This document shows, one piece after another, positions 9,195-64,000 of a stretch of 64,000 nucleotides of DNA. The position numbers and the translations under genes are program-made. The stretch covers positions 1,426,001 through 1,490,000 of the forward strand of contig CANMFO010000001.1 in assembly GCA_947497245.1 (NCBI GenBank), in the 5' to 3' direction. Below the pieces are notes generated by a model. That model saw only the letters and a list, made by a program, of their open reading frames with translations, did not search any database and had not been told where the DNA came from. This stretch comes from an uncultured Flavobacteriaceae bacterium (lineage in GTDB: Bacteria; Bacteroidota; Bacteroidia; Flavobacteriales; Flavobacteriaceae). The stretch's first letter is position 1. Every line of letters starts with the position of its first letter.

Positions 9195-9889
9195 CGTTGA
9201 AGTGTATAATCGTTGATGATGAGCCCATAGCAAGAAAGGTGATCAAGAGCCATTTGGAAAATTTTGAAAACGTTGAGGTGGTATCGGAATGTAAAAATGC
9301 GATACAGGCCTTTGAAGTTTTGAAAACAAAGAATGTGGATCTAATGTTTTTGGATATCCAAATGCCACAAATAAGCGGAATGGATTTCTTAAAAAACCTA
9401 AGCTACCGGCCAGCGGTGATAATCACCACCGCATATAGGGACTATGCCGTTGAAAGTTTTGATTTTGACGTGATAGACTATCTTTTAAAACCCATTTCCC
9501 TGGAACGATTTCTCAAAGCGATAAATAGGTATTACGAAAAATATCAACCCTTAAAAAAAACTTTGGGTGAAAATGAGGGAGAATTTATATATGTAAAGGA
9601 AAACAAGATTACCAATAAGGTCGTATTGGACGAAATAGTCTATGTGGAAAGCATGAGGGAGTATATTACCATATATACCCAGGAAAGAACCATTACGGTA
9701 AAATCAAGCTTGACCAAATTCTGCGATAATCTTCCAAAAGAGGCATTCGTAAGAATTCACAGTTCGTTTGTTATTTCCATGAGTCAGGTAAAATCGTTCT
9801 CGACAACCAAAATAATCTTAAAAACAGGACAAGTGCTCCCGATCAGCAGATCGTACAAAAATATGGTAATGGCACAATTGAACTTATGA
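9191..9889 (+). CDS. LytTR-family response regulator
   Basis: Receiver (IIVDDEPIARKVI, MFLDIQMPQISG, TTAYRDYAVESF) plus C-terminal LytTR domain (FVRIHSSFVISMSQVKSF). Overlaps kinase by 4 bp. Confidence 0.93.
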   Translation: MTLKCIIVDDEPIARKVIKSHLENFENVEVVSECKNAIQAFEVLKTKNVDLMFLDIQMPQISGMDFLKNLSYRPAVIITTAYRDYAVESFDFDVIDYLLKPISLERFLKAINRYYEKYQPLKKTLGENEGEFIYVKENKITNKVVLDEIVYVESMREYITIYTQERTITVKSSLTKFCDNLPKEAFVRIHSSFVISMSQVKSFSTTKIILKTGQVLPISRSYKNMVMAQLNL

Positions 9890-36124: not shown

Positions 36125-39100
36125 ATGAGAAAAAATTACGCACTATTGAAATTACCCATACTTTTTTTTATAGGATCAATCGTTTCTTCCGTTCAGGCCC
36201 AAACCCCTGAGCAAGATGGTCAATGGAGCGATCCGATTCCGTTTGGAATTGTACCGGTTGCCGTTGCGAACCTTCCTGACGGCAAGTTGATCACCTGGTC
36301 ATCCAAGTTCCGGGACACGTATACCGAGATGGAGGATGGAATGACCTATACTGAAATATTCGACCCCACTCTGGGCACGGACGGCCAAGCACTTGGCGAA
36401 ACAGTGACCCAGACCAACCACGACATGTTCTGTCCCGGAATCAACAACCTGGCCGATGGACGGATCCTTTCAGCAGGAGGTACCAGCAGCGAGCGCACCA
36501 GTATATATGACCCCGTGACAGGTATCTGGTCCCGGGCCGCCGATATGAATGTCAATCGGGGTTACCAGGGCAATGTGACACTGGCAGACGGATCGGTCTT
36601 TACCGTTGGCGGTTCTTGGAGCGGTAGCAACACCGTGGCCACCAATGGGGGCAAGAATGCGGAACTCTATACGCCGTCCACCGGATGGATCAATCTTCCC
36701 AATATCGAAGGGGAGGACATATTCACGGCGAACGATCTGGCCAAGGAACTTCAGGGCCCGTATAGGGTGGACAACCATGTATGGCTCTGGCCTGCGCCCA
36801 ATGGCAAAATCTTCCATGCGGGTCCGGGTGAAATGATGCACTGGATCGAACCGGATATCGCGAACGGAGGTTCCATTTCAGATGCGGGCTTACGGGGCAC
36901 GGACACTTACTCCATGAAGGGGACCACCGTAATGTTCGACATTGGTAAAATATTAAAAGTGGGAGGGGCGGAATCCTACGGCAGTTCCGATCCGGCCTTT
37001 GTGCCGGCCAAGGACAACTCCATGGTCATCGACATCAACGATGAGAACAACGTCACCGTAACGGCCACCGTGAACAATCTGAGCTTCGCCAGGACCATGC
37101 ACAACAGTACGGTGCTCCCTGATGGAAAAGTGCTGGTTACCGGAGGGCTCGATAAGGCCGAAGTCTTTTCGGATACAGGTGCCAGGCTCACAGCCGAGCT
37201 GTACGATCCCGCGACGAACAGTTGGAGCAATGTTGCCGGGATGGCAATACCCAGAACATACCACAGTGTTTCCATTTTGCTGACCGATGGCCGTGTCTTT
37301 GTTGGAGGCGGCGGTCTTTGCGACACTTCCAACCTGGATGAATGCGTCAACCACATGGACGCTGAAATCTATAGCCCACCGTATCTCTTTACCGCGGGAG
37401 GCGCACTGGCCACAAGGCCCACGATCTCGGCCCCGGCAACATCCGACTATGACACAAATATCAGTGTAACGGGCACGAATGGCATCAATGGGTTCAGCCT
37501 CATCCGTTTTTCCGCGGCTACCCACAGTACCAACAACGAACAACGCCGGATCCCTGTAGGCTTTACGGAGGACACTCCGGGAAATTATACCGTCTCCATC
37601 CCGAATAGGGAACTATTGCCTCCTGGAAACTACATGCTCTTTGCACTGGACATTAATGGGGTGCCCAGCGTCGCGGAGACCATCAATATCGGTTCCGACG
37701 TACCCTTGTCCATCAATCCAAACCTTATATTGGACCTCAGCTTCGATGAGACCTCCGGGTCTACGGCCAATGACGGTTCTTTGTACAACAACGACGCCAC
37801 TATTTATGATGTGGACAACGATGCGGCCGACAAGACAGCGGGTACCCATACATGGGATACCGGTGTTTTTGGCGGGGCCATCGCCATGGATGGTTTCGAA
37901 TTCCAGAGCAACACGATCATCGAGGTGCCCTATTCGGCATCCATGGCGACCATCCAGGACGCCGTAACCGTAATGGCCTGGGTGAACCGTGCCGATATCG
38001 ACTTCAACGTGGGCATCTTGAGCCACGACTACCCGCAATTGTTCTTCGGCTTCCACAACAGTATGTACAAATGGGACTTCCCAACCGATACCGGTGGAAG
38101 GGCGGACTGCTACGCGGGCTACTCCCCATTGAACACTTGGGTGCACATAGCGGCCACCTATGACGGACAGACCGCCCGACTCTTTGCCAATGGCGTGGAG
38201 ATATGTACGCAGGCCGTTTCGGGAGATTTCAATCTCAATTCCGCAGAGGCGAACTTCTCGGCTTTTACAGCTTCCGGTTTTTACCAGCGTGATCCCAATG
38301 TGGTACCTTCCTACAATGGAAGTGGCGTTACGGACGAGATCAATGGAAAAATTGACGAATTTAAAGTATTCAACAAGGCATTGGGTGCCCAGGAGATCCA
38401 GGCATTTTTCGAACTGGGCCAGGCTCAGGGTGTCGGAGTGCCCGTCTGCCCCGACGGCACGATAACCGCCGAGTATAAAATAGGCAATGGAGCATGGATC
38501 GCCGGCAACAACATCAATGTGCCCGAGGGTAGCGAGGTCTTCATAAGGGCCCAGGCTACAGGGGAATACCTGGTCACCGTACCCGAAGTGGACAGTGATA
38601 CTTTCAGTTCCCTGACCGATTTCACCCAAACAAATGGTTACAAATTGGATACGGGAACAAAAACCTCTGACAACGATGGGACCGTGTCGGCCACCAACGA
38701 GGGTCAGTACGTACTGACCACTGTGGGCGGGTGCGCCGTGGTAATCAACCTGAACGTCACGGGCAGCTGTGATCCTGGAGACACCCAGGTACAGGCTGAA
38801 TGGAGGATAGGGACAGCGCCCTACCAGAACGGTAACATCGGGGAAGACGTGAACATCACGGCAGACGAAGGGCAGAACGTACGCTTGAGCCTGCTTCCCA
38901 ATGTTAAGGACAGCGACGGCACCGCCCTGCGCTTCGACGTCACAACACCAAGCGGAGCCATTATAAACAGTGTTTTCGGGGACTACAGGATCGATGGCAT
39001 CAAGCCCTCCGATGCTGGGAACTATATCTTGGAATCCGAGGAAGGCTGTTCGCTTATCATCACGGTGGATGTCAATGCATTCGATTGTGGCACGGTGGAA

Positions 39101-41257
39101 ACCGAATACAGGATCAATGGCACCGGGGCCTTTATTACCGGGCAAAGCACGCTCTCTATAGAGGAGGGCAACGAATTGCTTTTGAGCATCATCCCCAATG
39201 GGAACGCTTGGTCGCTCTCCGGACCCAACGGCCATAGCAAACCTGAGGATTTTACCGACTACACCATACCGAGCCTTACCACAGCCGATTCTGGACTGTA
39301 CACCTTCACCACCATCACAGGCTGTGAGGTAACCCTGGACGTAACAGTTACGGCAGTGGACTGCAGCATAGTGGAAACGGAGTACGAGATCAATGATAGC
39401 GGGGATTTCATAGAGGGGGCCACAGAGGTCACCGTAGTGATTGGGAGCGATCTGCTCTTGAGCATCATCCCCAATGGCACACCCTATTCCATCGCCGGGC
39501 CCAATGGCAATGACAAAACCATGAGTACGTCCGATCTGGTCATTACGGATATCGCCGCCGATGACGCGGGCACCTATACCTTTACCACACAGGGTGGATG
39601 TATCGTCACCCTGGATGTAATTGTCAATTCAGTGGATTGCGATGCGCTGGGCCTAGTCACCGAATATAGGATCGACACCGGTCTGTACGTTTCTGGTGAA
39701 ACTGTGGTAACCGTCAATGAGGGCAGTAGATTGGATCTGAGCATCCTTCCCAACGGCGTACCTTTTTCCATAGATGGCCCCAACGGGAACAACAAGGCGG
39801 AAAGCGTTCAAGATCTGACCATTTCCAGTATGACCATAGCGGACGGGGGAACCTACACCTTCACGACCAACACAGGTTGTGAGGTTACCTTATTGGTCGG
39901 TGTGGATAGCTCGGACTGTACCGCGCTGAACGTACAATCGGAATACACTATTGATGGCGGTGCAAATGTAACCGGTCAGTCGCAGGTAAGCCTGCCCGAG
40001 GGAAGTACCTTGCTATTGAGCATTATCCCGGACGGTATTCCTTATAGTATAGCCGGGGCAAATGGAAACGACAAACCCGCCGACTTGTCCGATTTGACCA
40101 TTACCAATATCGCTGCGGCGGATGCGGGTACTTATACCTTTTTGACCACAATGGGCTGCTCGACAAGTATCGAGGTCCTTGTTACCGATCCTTGTCCACC
40201 GGGTAGTTTTACCCCGGAATACACGCTTGACGGGACCGCCGGAAGTGGTGATAGTTCCATCTCCGTAGAATTGGGAACCCCTGTTTCCCTTGGCGTTGTC
40301 CAAGGCGGTACGTTTGAAATAACACAGCCGAACGGCACCAAAACCAATGGCGTCCTTGATTTGGGCAATATTGCCCTTGCCCAGGCAGGCGATTATGTCT
40401 TTACCTCTTCCGTCGGTTGCATGGAGACCTTGACCATAGTCGTGGTCGACCCCTGTACCGCGGCCAATTTTGCTCCGGAATACACGATCGATGGCATCCC
40501 GGGAAGTGGCAACGCCACCATCACGGTGGATGAAGATACTCCGGTCGTCCTGGGGCTGGTACAAGATGGCGTCGAATTCAGCATTACAGCTCCCGACAAC
40601 AGCACGACCGTGGGAGATCTTGATTTGGGCAATGTGGCACTATCGCAAGCTGGAGACTATGTGTACAGCTCGCCCAAAGGATGTGCCGCCACGGTAACTA
40701 TCGTAGTGAATGCCAGTGACCCTTGTCCTGCGGGCAGTTTTACCCCGGAATACAGTGTGGGTGGCGCGGTGTCAAACGGCGAATCAAGCATTACCGTCGA
40801 TGCTGGGACCCCTGTGATCTTGGGCATAGTCCAAGATACTGGCTTTACGATTACCGATCCCAACAACGTAACCACCACGGGGAATCTTGATTTGGGCAAT
40901 ATTATTGTGACCCAGGCCGGGAACTATGTTTTCACTTCCGATGCCGGCTGCACTGCCGAACTGTTGATTACGGTGAACGCGCTTCCGGCAATAGGACTGG
41001 ATGATGTTAAACTGTTCCCCAACCCGACCACGGATGGCACGCTGTCTTTTGGGCTGGAAAACTTCATGAACGAACGAATGTTCATTAGTTTTTTCAATAT
41101 CCACGGTAGATTGATGTTCCAGGAAACGGTTCCCGATAACCATGCTGAGGTTGTGACCGTTGATGTCTCTTCCCTGAGTTCGGGCACCTATCTGGTTGAA
41201 ATCAGAAGAAGCGAAAAAGATGAGAATACCATCAAAAAAGTAATTAAAAGGAGGTAA
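36125..41257 (+). CDS. T9SS-secreted galactose-oxidase-like copper radical oxidase with LamG domain, Ig-like repeats and type A sorting domain
   Basis: HDMFCPGINNLADGRILSAGG, NRGYQGNVTLADGSVFTVGGSWSG, RTYHSVSILLTDGRVFVGGGGLC, SAATHSTNNEQRRIP correspond to galactose oxidase active-site motifs; LamG around residues 540-770; 9 C-terminal repeats; CTD VKLFPNPTTDGTLSF...GTYLVEIRRSE...KKVIKRR. Confidence 0.93.
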   Translation: MRKNYALLKLPILFFIGSIVSSVQAQTPEQDGQWSDPIPFGIVPVAVANLPDGKLITWSSKFRDTYTEMEDGMTYTEIFDPTLGTDGQALGETVTQTNHDMFCPGINNLADGRILSAGGTSSERTSIYDPVTGIWSRAADMNVNRGYQGNVTLADGSVFTVGGSWSGSNTVATNGGKNAELYTPSTGWINLPNIEGEDIFTANDLAKELQGPYRVDNHVWLWPAPNGKIFHAGPGEMMHWIEPDIANGGSISDAGLRGTDTYSMKGTTVMFDIGKILKVGGAESYGSSDPAFVPAKDNSMVIDINDENNVTVTATVNNLSFARTMHNSTVLPDGKVLVTGGLDKAEVFSDTGARLTAELYDPATNSWSNVAGMAIPRTYHSVSILLTDGRVFVGGGGLCDTSNLDECVNHMDAEIYSPPYLFTAGGALATRPTISAPATSDYDTNISVTGTNGINGFSLIRFSAATHSTNNEQRRIPVGFTEDTPGNYTVSIPNRELLPPGNYMLFALDINGVPSVAETINIGSDVPLSINPNLILDLSFDETSGSTANDGSLYNNDATIYDVDNDAADKTAGTHTWDTGVFGGAIAMDGFEFQSNTIIEVPYSASMATIQDAVTVMAWVNRADIDFNVGILSHDYPQLFFGFHNSMYKWDFPTDTGGRADCYAGYSPLNTWVHIAATYDGQTARLFANGVEICTQAVSGDFNLNSAEANFSAFTASGFYQRDPNVVPSYNGSGVTDEINGKIDEFKVFNKALGAQEIQAFFELGQAQGVGVPVCPDGTITAEYKIGNGAWIAGNNINVPEGSEVFIRAQATGEYLVTVPEVDSDTFSSLTDFTQTNGYKLDTGTKTSDNDGTVSATNEGQYVLTTVGGCAVVINLNVTGSCDPGDTQVQAEWRIGTAPYQNGNIGEDVNITADEGQNVRLSLLPNVKDSDGTALRFDVTTPSGAIINSVFGDYRIDGIKPSDAGNYILESEEGCSLIITVDVNAFDCGTVETEYRINGTGAFITGQSTLSIEEGNELLLSIIPNGNAWSLSGPNGHSKPEDFTDYTIPSLTTADSGLYTFTTITGCEVTLDVTVTAVDCSIVETEYEINDSGDFIEGATEVTVVIGSDLLLSIIPNGTPYSIAGPNGNDKTMSTSDLVITDIAADDAGTYTFTTQGGCIVTLDVIVNSVDCDALGLVTEYRIDTGLYVSGETVVTVNEGSRLDLSILPNGVPFSIDGPNGNNKAESVQDLTISSMTIADGGTYTFTTNTGCEVTLLVGVDSSDCTALNVQSEYTIDGGANVTGQSQVSLPEGSTLLLSIIPDGIPYSIAGANGNDKPADLSDLTITNIAAADAGTYTFLTTMGCSTSIEVLVTDPCPPGSFTPEYTLDGTAGSGDSSISVELGTPVSLGVVQGGTFEITQPNGTKTNGVLDLGNIALAQAGDYVFTSSVGCMETLTIVVVDPCTAANFAPEYTIDGIPGSGNATITVDEDTPVVLGLVQDGVEFSITAPDNSTTVGDLDLGNVALSQAGDYVYSSPKGCAATVTIVVNASDPCPAGSFTPEYSVGGAVSNGESSITVDAGTPVILGIVQDTGFTITDPNNVTTTGNLDLGNIIVTQAGNYVFTSDAGCTAELLITVNALPAIGLDDVKLFPNPTTDGTLSFGLENFMNERMFISFFNIHGRLMFQETVPDNHAEVVTVDVSSLSSGTYLVEIRRSEKDENTIKKVIKRR
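38447..40980 (+). repeat. Nine tandem about 80-100 aa Ig-like, Cys-paired repeats within the 1710-aa protein
   Basis: Each unit begins at a Cys and ends with a 'GC xx (V/L)xVxV' strand; units 3-6 share DC...TEYxI...LLLSIIPNG...GPNGN...AGTYTFTT; units 7-9 share PC...PEYTxDG...TPVxLGxVQ...LDLGNI..AQAGDYVFTS. Confidence 0.85.
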
Positions 41258-46220: not shown

Positions 46221-46257
46221 AAAAAAAGCCGTACGATACCATTGTACGGCTTTTTTT
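46221..46257 (+). terminator. Intrinsic terminator (sequence is bidirectional)
   Basis: aaaaaaagccgtac / gtacggcttttttt, 9-nt loop; 28 bp after the 44909 gene stop. Confidence 0.85.
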
Positions 46258-46507: not shown

Positions 46508-46778
46508 GTGCATTATATCGATTCACATGTTGCCAAAAGTGCATTTCATCTATTAAATCGGTCCGTTCACAACATTTTACGCCATTTTCAAGTTCTAGGT
46601 ATAGGCTTTTGTCAAAAATTCTAGCTGGATTCCTTAGAGTCGTTAAAAATGTTAAAAAAAAGTGCATTTCATCGAAAAAACGAGCAGTTGAAAGACCAAG
46701 ATCGTAGCTTCCTCCGTACTTTTGTCGAAACAAGTAAAACCTATGTGCATTTCATCGAAAAAAAGTGAATTTCGCCGA
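46508..46778 (+). promoter_or_regulatory. Array of direct repeats, consensus GTGCATTTCATCGA
   Basis: Copies at 46508 (GTGCATTATATCGA), 46539 (GTGCATTTCATCTA), 46662 (GTGCATTTCATCGA), 46745 (GTGCATTTCATCGA), 46765 (GTGAATTTCGCCGA), all in the orientation of the downstream gene. Confidence 0.75.
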
Positions 46779-46845
46779 TCGAATGCAAGTCATTTCGTAA
46801 TATTAAACTCCCAAGTTTGAAAACCCCTAAACCCTAGACCTACTT

Positions 46846-48321
46846 ATGAAATTTCCCCTAGTAAAGATCATTCGTTTGATTGTACCCATTTTCTTCCTGT
46901 TCCTAAGTTTTTCCTGCAGTAAGGATTCCGATTTGCTGACCGAGTATGCCGTAGCGGATCCAGGCAATAAAATTGCCATTCTAAACATCGTCGTCGATGA
47001 CAAGTACGATGCCGTTTATGGTAGCGCTACGGTGCTCAATGTACTGGACAACGATACCTTCACCAATTCGGACAATGTAACGATCGTTGAGACCTCGACC
47101 CCCGAAAATGGAACGGCCGTGATCAATGACGACAATACCATTACCTATACCCCTACAGAGCAGTCCACTCCCCAGGAAGAGACCACCGATACCTTCACGT
47201 ATACCACGGAGACCCAAAACGATGACAATACAGTGGATACGAATGTCGGCACGGTTACGGTTACGGCTTCTGAAGAAGTTACCTATTGGCAGAAGAAGTT
47301 CGACGCCGAAAGCAACGATAACGACAATCAAGTGGACGCGTCGGATGCATTGGCTAAATCGAAAAGTGCCAACGAGAACCAGGAATATTATTTTCTCGGT
47401 TACTATGTGGATGCCTATGTATCGATGTGGCAGGCCACTGGAGACAACACCTATTTGGATTATGCACTTACCCTGATAGAGAATACCATGGACGATGCCG
47501 TGAACGTTAGCGTCAATGGAAGAACATTCAAGGGTTGGCCGACCGATCCAAACCATTCCCAACCGTCGTCCTATGGCCATTCACTATGGGAGTCGTTCAT
47601 GTTCCGATTCGTTGCCTCTTTAATGCGGATTATGGACCGCTCACCCAATTTAAGGGCAACCGCCAATTACCAGAGCCGATATGACAGTATATTGAACTTC
47701 ACCATTGAAAACATTTGGAACAAATGGGAGCACAACGGTGTAGGCAATTTCTATCGCATCAATACGCATATGGCTTCGCATTGGGCCAGAATTGGAATGG
47801 AACTCTACCTTATTACCGGAGAAGCCAAGTACAAGGAAGTATTTGACAATATTTCCCATGGAACCATGGTAAACCGACCTTCCAATCTGAGGAACCAACT
47901 CAGGTCCAATCCCAATGTACCCTCTGCTTATACTTGGAACCAGAATTGGGACAGTGGCGGCATACAGGATACCTCCCACGCCGGCGCTATCGTTTCTTTC
48001 TGGGTCGAGGCGTACGAAACCGATATGTATTGGGATCAAAATGACATCGATGCATTGATTTCTACCCTTGTCAATGTGATTTGGCCCGAAAGCAAAGGAG
48101 ATAAGTTCAATGAAAATGTTGACGGCACAGGTGGCAACGCGTATAGTGGACGACTTCACGAGTGGTTGCATTTGGGGGCTTACAGTCAGGAAATACAGGA
48201 TAGGATCAAGTCGGATTATACGGGAGCCAACTTGACCTATTTCGGTGTCCAGCCGATTGGCATTGCCGCTCTGAACGCCAGAATTTTGGCCGATGGCAAA
48301 CCCATTTATCCCGAACAATAA
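46846..48321 (+). CDS. Lipoprotein with cadherin/Ig-like N-terminal segment and alpha-helical (toroid-like) domain; possible polysaccharide-active protein
   Basis: Lipobox SFSCSKDSDLL; VLNVLDNDTFTNSDNVTIVETSTPENGTAVINDDNTITYTPTE; helical repeats YYVDAYVSMWQATGDNTYLDYALTLIENTMD...HMASHWARIGMELYLITGEAKYKEVFDNIS. Confidence 0.7.
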   Translation: MKFPLVKIIRLIVPIFFLFLSFSCSKDSDLLTEYAVADPGNKIAILNIVVDDKYDAVYGSATVLNVLDNDTFTNSDNVTIVETSTPENGTAVINDDNTITYTPTEQSTPQEETTDTFTYTTETQNDDNTVDTNVGTVTVTASEEVTYWQKKFDAESNDNDNQVDASDALAKSKSANENQEYYFLGYYVDAYVSMWQATGDNTYLDYALTLIENTMDDAVNVSVNGRTFKGWPTDPNHSQPSSYGHSLWESFMFRFVASLMRIMDRSPNLRATANYQSRYDSILNFTIENIWNKWEHNGVGNFYRINTHMASHWARIGMELYLITGEAKYKEVFDNISHGTMVNRPSNLRNQLRSNPNVPSAYTWNQNWDSGGIQDTSHAGAIVSFWVEAYETDMYWDQNDIDALISTLVNVIWPESKGDKFNENVDGTGGNAYSGRLHEWLHLGAYSQEIQDRIKSDYTGANLTYFGVQPIGIAALNARILADGKPIYPEQ

Positions 48322-62448: not shown

Positions 62449-62635
62449 GTGCATTTCATCTATAATATTGACCTTTTCACAACATTTTTGGGGATATGTA
62501 GTTGTACTCTTAGAGGGTTCAGCAAATGGATGGATTTTCGATGAAAGGAGGATTAACTCCGCCAAAATTCACAATAAATGAATTTGAAATGTTAAAAAAA
62601 AGTGCATCTCATCGAATAAATGTGTTGTTCATGGT
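62449..62635 (+). promoter_or_regulatory. Second array of GTGCATTTCATCGA-type direct repeats
   Basis: Copies at 62449 (GTGCATTTCATCTA), 62602 (GTGCATCTCATCGA), and a weak copy 20 bp later at 62622 (GTGTTGTTCATGGT). Confidence 0.7.
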
Positions 62636-62783
62636 CCAAAATATTTTGCTGTGCGTAATTTATCGAACCAAATCGTCGATGATACGTAGTTCATCTAAAA
62701 ATAAGCAGTTTTCAACCTAGTTTTTATCTTGTTTAGCAAAGTTTTTAGTAACCCAAAAAAGCAATTGAAATAAAAGCCTACTT

Positions 62784-64000
62784 ATGAAATTTCCCCACAT
62801 CAAAGTCGTTCCGATGACGATATTTGCTTTTGTCTTTCTATTGAGTTTTTCCTGTTCCAAAGATTCCGATCTGCTTTCCGAGTATGCCCTTGCCGATGAC
62901 GCTGGGGATTTGGTAATCAATACGTATTTGGTCGACGATCGCTATACCACCTATGCGGACAGCAGCATCATTCTCGACGTATTGTCCAATGACATTTTCA
63001 CAGATGAGGAAAACGTCAAAATAGTGGAAACCTCCCCTCCAATCAATGGAGAGGTTATCATCATAGAGAACAAGACCTTGTTGTATATCCCCGAACAGGC
63101 CGCCGCGCCCGAGGAAAATGGCCCGGAGGAAACGCCCGCTCCGGATCCCGTACCCGAGGAAACACCGGCGCCCGAAGAGACCCCGGAAGCGGAGACGGAC
63201 ACCTTTACCTATACCACGGAAGTGTCCAATGAGGACGAAACGGTCACTACGGAGACGGCAACGGTTACGGTGGAAGTGGTGCCCCCATCGGATAACGGTG
63301 AACAGGACGTATCGGGGCTCAAAACCGTAGCGGAGTTCAAGGCCGATTTTGATGCCTACTGGAGTGCGGAGGAAAAGGGATGGTATACCGCTATCTCGAC
63401 CAGTGGAAATGAGGGGGATATATACTACCTGGATGGTATCCAGGCTCTGGTGACCATGTTTCAGGCCACGGGGGATACGGATTATATGGACGATGCCATC
63501 CGGCTCATAAAGAATATCATGGCCACTGCAAAGCCGTCGAGTAGCTTGCCCCAGTACCGGGGATACAACGACAGCTATCTTTCTTGGCATAGTAATTCCA
63601 GTACCAGTGTCACCGGCCAAGGCCTTTCTGGGGATGGTGGCCAGGCTCCCCTATATGAAACCCGGGGTTTCCAGCACGTTGCAAAATTGCTATGGGTACT
63701 CTACGAAAGTCCCAATCTGAGGGCAAGCAGGTATCAGTCCGATTATCAGGCGATTTTGGATTTCGTAGAAACGCACATTTGGGAAAAGTGGTTCAGCAGG
63801 GACGATTGGGTTCCGTACCGACTTAGTATAGACGGAACTGCCGGATGGGCCAGAATAGGTTTCTTTCTTCATAAAATTACAGGGGATTCCAAATACAGAC
63901 TGGTCTTTGATCGATTCAATACCAATATGAACTACGGAACCAGTGCTAAATCCATGCGGGAGATACTCAAAAGCAACAGCGCCAATTCAAGTGGTTATCA
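62784..64000 (+). CDS. Lipoprotein paralogous to 46846..48321; 3' end beyond the window
   Basis: Open frame from ATG 62784 read to the window end: MKFPHIKVVPMTIFAFVFLLSFSCSKDSDLLSEYALADD...ILDVLSNDIFTDEENVKIVETSPPINGEV...DTFTYTTE...YYLDGIQALVTMFQATGDTDYMDDAIRLIKNIM...NLRASRYQSDYQAILDFVETHIWEKW. Not in the ORF track, presumably because there is no stop. Confidence 0.88.
   Translation, partial: MKFPHIKVVPMTIFAFVFLLSFSCSKDSDLLSEYALADDAGDLVINTYLVDDRYTTYADSSIILDVLSNDIFTDEENVKIVETSPPINGEVIIIENKTLLYIPEQAAAPEENGPEETPAPDPVPEETPAPEETPEAETDTFTYTTEVSNEDETVTTETATVTVEVVPPSDNGEQDVSGLKTVAEFKADFDAYWSAEEKGWYTAISTSGNEGDIYYLDGIQALVTMFQATGDTDYMDDAIRLIKNIMATAKPSSSLPQYRGYNDSYLSWHSNSSTSVTGQGLSGDGGQAPLYETRGFQHVAKLLWVLYESPNLRASRYQSDYQAILDFVETHIWEKWFSRDDWVPYRLSIDGTAGWARIGFFLHKITGDSKYRLVFDRFNTNMNYGTSAKSMREILKSNSANSSGY

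Follow-up and report, generated by a model that had tools for sequence, protein, structure and literature searches.

A two-part direct repeat of probable LytTR type in EPS-locus promoters and across the Flavobacteriaceae

The stretch of DNA analysed here (the window) covers 64,000 nucleotides from an uncultured Flavobacteriaceae bacterium. An array of repeats before the lipoprotein gene at 46846, in the EPS locus, is best explained as a tandem of three sites bound by a response regulator with a LytTR domain. A site would consist of a strong 14-mer, GTGCATTTCATCGA, and a weaker copy 20-21 bp further on, on the same face of the DNA. Two regulator monomers would bind per site, presumably cooperatively and with the strong copy occupied first, and the regulator would activate a promoter whose putative -7 box lies about 53 bp past the start of the last site. 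The predicted targets are this lipoprotein gene and its paralogue at 62784, within a regulon that may extend through the Flavobacteriaceae, with a prominent share of surface and secreted proteins. The best candidate for the regulator is a protein here called L135-OG. The probability of this reading as a whole, tandem LytTR sites bound by L135-OG, is put at about 0.62. The motif, its pairing, its family-wide enrichment, its conserved spacing and its co-occurrence with L135-OG were all established by computation.

A first-pass annotation of the window had reported five copies of the repeat, all on the forward strand, and all five were recovered: 46508 (12/14 bases matching GTGCATTTCATCGA), 46539 (13/14), 46662 (14/14), 46745 (14/14) and 46765 (11/14). 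Under a Markov model of the same 445-bp region, three copies with at most one mismatch were observed against 0.00025 expected, and five with at most three mismatches against 0.02 expected; a mismatch scan of the minus strand of this region found no copy. Weak downstream half-sites at 46559 and 46682 can be added to the earlier list. The features of the region are as follows.

46221..46257, + strand: terminator-like hairpin, an inverted repeat GCCGTAC ... GTACGGC followed by T7, after the UDP-sugar dehydrogenase gene
46508..46521, + strand: weak solitary copy GTGCATTATATCGA (12/14), outside the recurrent spacing, doubtful
46539..46552, + strand: site A, strong half GTGCATTTCATCTA (13/14)
46559..46572, + strand: site A, second-half position (+20), CGGTCCGTTCACAA, only 4/14
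46662..46675, + strand: site B, strong half GTGCATTTCATCGA, exact; kept in the paralogue, two congeners and Maribacter
46682..46695, + strand: site B, second half (+20), GAGCAGTTGAAAGA, 9/14
46745..46758, + strand: site C, strong half GTGCATTTCATCGA, exact, 83 bp after site B
46765..46778, + strand: site C, second half (+20), GTGAATTTCGCCGA, 11/14
46798..46805, + strand: putative -7 box TAATATTA, 53 bp after the start of site C, proposed from the sequence and the family-wide peak
46846..48321, + strand: predicted target lipoprotein gene of the EPS locus, with a Big_9/cadherin-like domain

Two spacings had been singled out as close to whole helical turns. The 20 bp between 46745 and 46765 is the recurrent one: among 85 sites, same-strand partners peak at +20 (z 6.2) and +21 (z 3.7), which is the layout of a LytTR site. 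The 31 bp between 46508 and 46539 is not repeated elsewhere and does not appear meaningful; 46508 is therefore the least certain copy. In the aligned sites the strong 14-mer is followed by an A/T stretch and then by a second copy, degraded and in the same direction (roughly TG-ATTT-ATCG), and conservation stops at about 36 bp. In a subset of the 85 sites, taken family-wide, a TAnnTTT[GA] box peaks at +52 to +56; TAnnTTTG is the -7 box of flavobacterial sigma-A promoters (PMC9723704). The second half would thus end near the expected -33 region, a usual position for an activator. The sites of LytTR regulators such as AgrA, AlgR, VirR, ComE and BtsR usually lie upstream of the -35/-33 region.

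The terminator-like hairpin, which a simple terminator scan did not list, closes the UDP-sugar dehydrogenase gene upstream, so the lipoprotein gene at 46846 probably has its own promoter, separate from that gene. The lipoprotein has weak similarity to six-hairpin glycosidases (E 0.001); its AlphaFold2 model has a mean pLDDT of 45 and was not used as evidence. Ahead of the EPS genes, 36125-41257 (+) encodes a protein of 1710 aa that carries a T9SS sorting tail and has galactose-oxidase-like, laminin-G and Ig-like domains.

A second promoter with this arrangement of sites, missing from the first-pass annotation, lies at 62449-62717, further along the EPS locus.

62449..62462, + strand: site A, GTGCATTTCATCTA
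62602..62635, + strand: site B, GTGCATCTCATCGA, with second half GTGTTGTTCATGGT at +20
62684..62717, + strand: site C, degraded, ACGTAGTTCATCTA with AGCAGTTTTCAACC at +20, 82 bp after site B
62784..63998, + strand: predicted second target, the paralogous lipoprotein gene, which runs past the window end and is 43% identical to the lipoprotein at 46846 over the part inside the window

The spacing of sites B and C is kept: 83 bp before 46846 (46662 to 46745), 82 bp before the paralogue and 83 bp before the orthologue of Maribacter sedimenticola. In the latter the sites lie at -179 and -96 from the ATG, and the -96 site has its own +21 partner. In two congeners, site B is exact and a degraded site C follows 76-82 bp downstream. 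Only the two lipoprotein promoters of this genome showed a site A. Lack of conservation before orthologues had been named beforehand as evidence against a functional motif; the sites in Maribacter and the congeners show the opposite. A sequence model built without the sites of this genome gave 13 matches with E < 0.01 in it, five of them in the two lipoprotein promoters, which makes the EPS locus the densest target in the genome.

Random frequency across the genome had likewise been expected of a meaningless motif. Genomes were scanned with exact-pattern and sequence-model searches, and the reversed pattern served as control. In this genome of 5.25 Mb the exact pattern GTGCATTTCATCKA was matched 11 times and the reversed control not once, and within the Flavobacteriaceae there are 384 matches in 164 of 301 genomes (reversed control, 17). 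An extension beyond the family was rejected: about 235 genomes of the other families of the order hold nine matches, near the rate of the family genomes that lack L135-OG. In the fetched loci, 68 of 75 exact sites lie outside open reading frames of at least 130 aa, and 85% of the sequence of these loci is coding. Where a gene start was found downstream, it lay 55-257 bp from the site, and downstream genes in the same direction are weakly favoured (27 vs 14, p 0.06); some sites fall where two genes converge, or close to housekeeping genes. The two-part direct repeat is real, occurs family-wide and is linked to promoters, and at the EPS locus it forms a conserved cluster of several sites.

A minority of sites are palindromic, with an opposite-strand peak at -21. 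In two loci a near-perfect 34-bp form, TCGATGAAATGCAC-N6-GTGCRTTTCATCGA, was observed (L043:4001-4034 and L080:3001-3034), just after an amidophosphoribosyltransferase-like gene in this genome and in genome G228; it may represent either a LytTR site in inverted form or the hairpin of a terminator. This near-perfect class and the copies between convergent genes would suit an element that binds no transcription factor at all, such as an RNA hairpin or terminator, a dispersed repeat or a chromosome-maintenance sequence. That explanation is very improbable. Covariance models of Rfam families, Flavo-1 and other cis-regulatory RNAs included, gave no match here or in 20 site loci; the short conserved length is unlike that of a mobile repeat; and the -7 box stands at a preferred distance, while spacing is kept before orthologous genes.

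The identity of the element as a transcription-factor site may be read from its likeness to a known one. In E. coli, the LytTR response regulator YpdB (PyrR) binds GGCATTTCAT-N11-GGCATTTCAT in the yhjX promoter; the high-affinity site is bound first and then the second, which is thought to permit recruitment of RNA polymerase (PMC4847170). LytTR sites consist of two repeats of about 9-11 bp with 11-13 bp between them, direct or inverted (PMC4847170), which corresponds to a period of about 20-24 bp. The core here, TGCATTTCAT, agrees with GGCATTTCAT in 9 of 10 bases. Both systems have a tandem direct repeat with a strong and a weaker half about two helical turns apart, and the sites here, like that of YpdB, would serve an activator with the promoter downstream. 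There are differences, however. The period is 20 (sometimes 21) here and 21 in the YpdB site; the half-site here is longer (14 bp, with a 3' CGA) and its second half much more degraded; several sites occur per promoter, and the regulon would span many genes in a family of another phylum; and the candidate regulator, an orphan, shares only about 24% identity with YpdB. The sites of AgrA, AlgR, VirR, ComE and BtsR have the same two-repeat layout, with distinct consensus sequences and no common regulon. Some degraded copies here, CCGTTCATCGA for example, are similar to the AlgR box, CCGTTCGTC.

The first-pass annotation had likened paired direct repeats about two turns apart to the sites of LytTR-type regulators. 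This suggestion is strengthened by the agreement in core and period, and by the fact that, among 301 genomes, the motif goes with the presence of a LytTR response regulator. A regulator of another kind, whose site resembles that of YpdB by chance, is improbable. Palindromic sites are also seen with helix-turn-helix dimers, the phylogenetic profiles cover two LytTR groups, and many other genes could share the distribution of L135-OG; however, a joint chance match of nine core bases and the 20-21 bp direct-repeat geometry is unlikely, and LytTR sites may themselves be inverted. Judged from sequence, the element is very probably a LytTR-type site, whichever LytTR protein binds it. Its working as a paired LytTR site is better supported than membership in a YpdB regulon, which is not claimed.

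The candidate regulator L135-OG is encoded at G000:C1:338535-339224 of this genome. It is a 230-aa orphan response regulator with receiver and LytTR domains, both above the Pfam cut-offs (PF00072, 70.0 bits; PF04397, 72.8 bits), and is at least 90% identical in many genera. No kinase gene neighbours it; the flanking genes are taken to be rpsF and priA. The NCBIfam families BtsR (NF008677) and LytR (NF010684) have the same architecture, and L135-OG belongs to neither, since it scores 119 bits against a cut-off of 246 for BtsR and 80 against 375 for LytR. Nor does it qualify as the YpdB/PyrR orthologue: its identity to YpdB is 24%, against 32% for L127, and there is no adjacent LytS-type kinase. 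An HTCS hybrid sensor beside one of the motif sites, which had seemed a recurrent neighbour in four genomes, was discarded because different kinases had been grouped by their common kinase domains.

This genome has 37 LytTR genes, and three small motif-rich genomes have 5-6 each; one of the 37 lies inside the window, at about 9617-9880 (+). Only two orthologous groups, L132-OG and L135-OG, are common to the three small genomes and this one, and profiles were run for these two of the 37 LytTR proteins over the 301 genomes. Where L135-OG is present, 244 genomes hold 382 exact matches (control, 11); the 57 genomes without it hold 2 (control, 6), which is the background level. Fisher tests of this co-occurrence give p 7e-20 overall and 3e-7 when the genomes counted have at least 3 Mb, values that overstate independence because the genomes are related. 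Another gene gained at the same node would yield the same pattern.

A different LytTR protein, or several with overlapping specificity, could bind the same sites. The size of the LytTR complement, the closer relationship of L127 to YpdB and the presence of L132-OG in the motif-rich genomes speak for this explanation, which we still consider rather unlikely. L127 is the best match of no LytTR protein in the three small motif-rich genomes and was rejected. L132-OG is not required: 28 genomes with L132-OG and without L135-OG hold 2 matches (control, 5), whereas 17 genomes of the converse kind hold 10 (control, 0).

The sequence model, which needs no exact core, gives a similar picture. The mean number of matches was 1.35 in 17 large genomes that lack L135-OG, 5.07 in 14 genomes that have L135-OG but no exact copy, and 7.2 in ten genomes positive for L135-OG and negative for L132-OG. 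About a third of the L135-positive genomes lack an exact copy. From the co-occurrence, L135-OG is predicted to be the regulator of the GTGCATTTCATCGA sites, with somewhat better than even confidence. No clear autoregulatory 14-mer was found near its own gene. A pair GCAGTT...TTTGTCGATG is conserved before L135-OG genes in many genera (L135, L164, L184-L193); it is possibly a degraded tandem site, with autoregulation.

Some genes follow a site in two or more genomes. They encode the EPS lipoprotein, T9SS subtilase-like proteins, secreted leucine-rich proteins, a conserved protein of 147 aa and what we take, by eye, to be a CAP-like lipoprotein. In seven genomes a conserved predicted membrane protein of 28-29 aa (MDKYLITLGTYLILMLFFKIYYYVVAKE here) starts 81-98 bp after a motif copy (loci L044, L070, L081, L089, L109, L120 and L122; in our own genome, G000:C3 near 273350). 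A Pfam search of this protein gave no match, and its gene presumably lies between uvrC and the gene for 5-formyl-THF cyclo-ligase. Housekeeping neighbours also occur, presumably malate dehydrogenase and the amidophosphoribosyltransferase-like gene, so each of these genes is a candidate member of the regulon.

In the open literature searched, no description of the GTGCATTTCATCGA motif was found; LytTR and GCATTTCATC appear together only in one Vibrio study, and LytTR is absent from the main text of a transcriptome paper on F. psychrophilum. It is an even bet that one orphan LytTR regulator, over 90% identical in many genera and fixed between rpsF and priA as we name them, runs an undescribed family-wide GTGCATTTCATCGA regulon of EPS-linked lipoproteins, T9SS-secreted proteins and the 28-aa membrane protein.

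How Flavobacteriaceae control the transcription of their surface and exopolysaccharide genes has been mapped only poorly. The present analysis contributes a concrete predicted binding site, a set of predicted targets from many genomes and one named candidate for the regulator, and thereby opens an apparently undescribed control network to test. If the proposal is true, a YpdB-like LytTR specificity would serve a family-wide regulon in another phylum.
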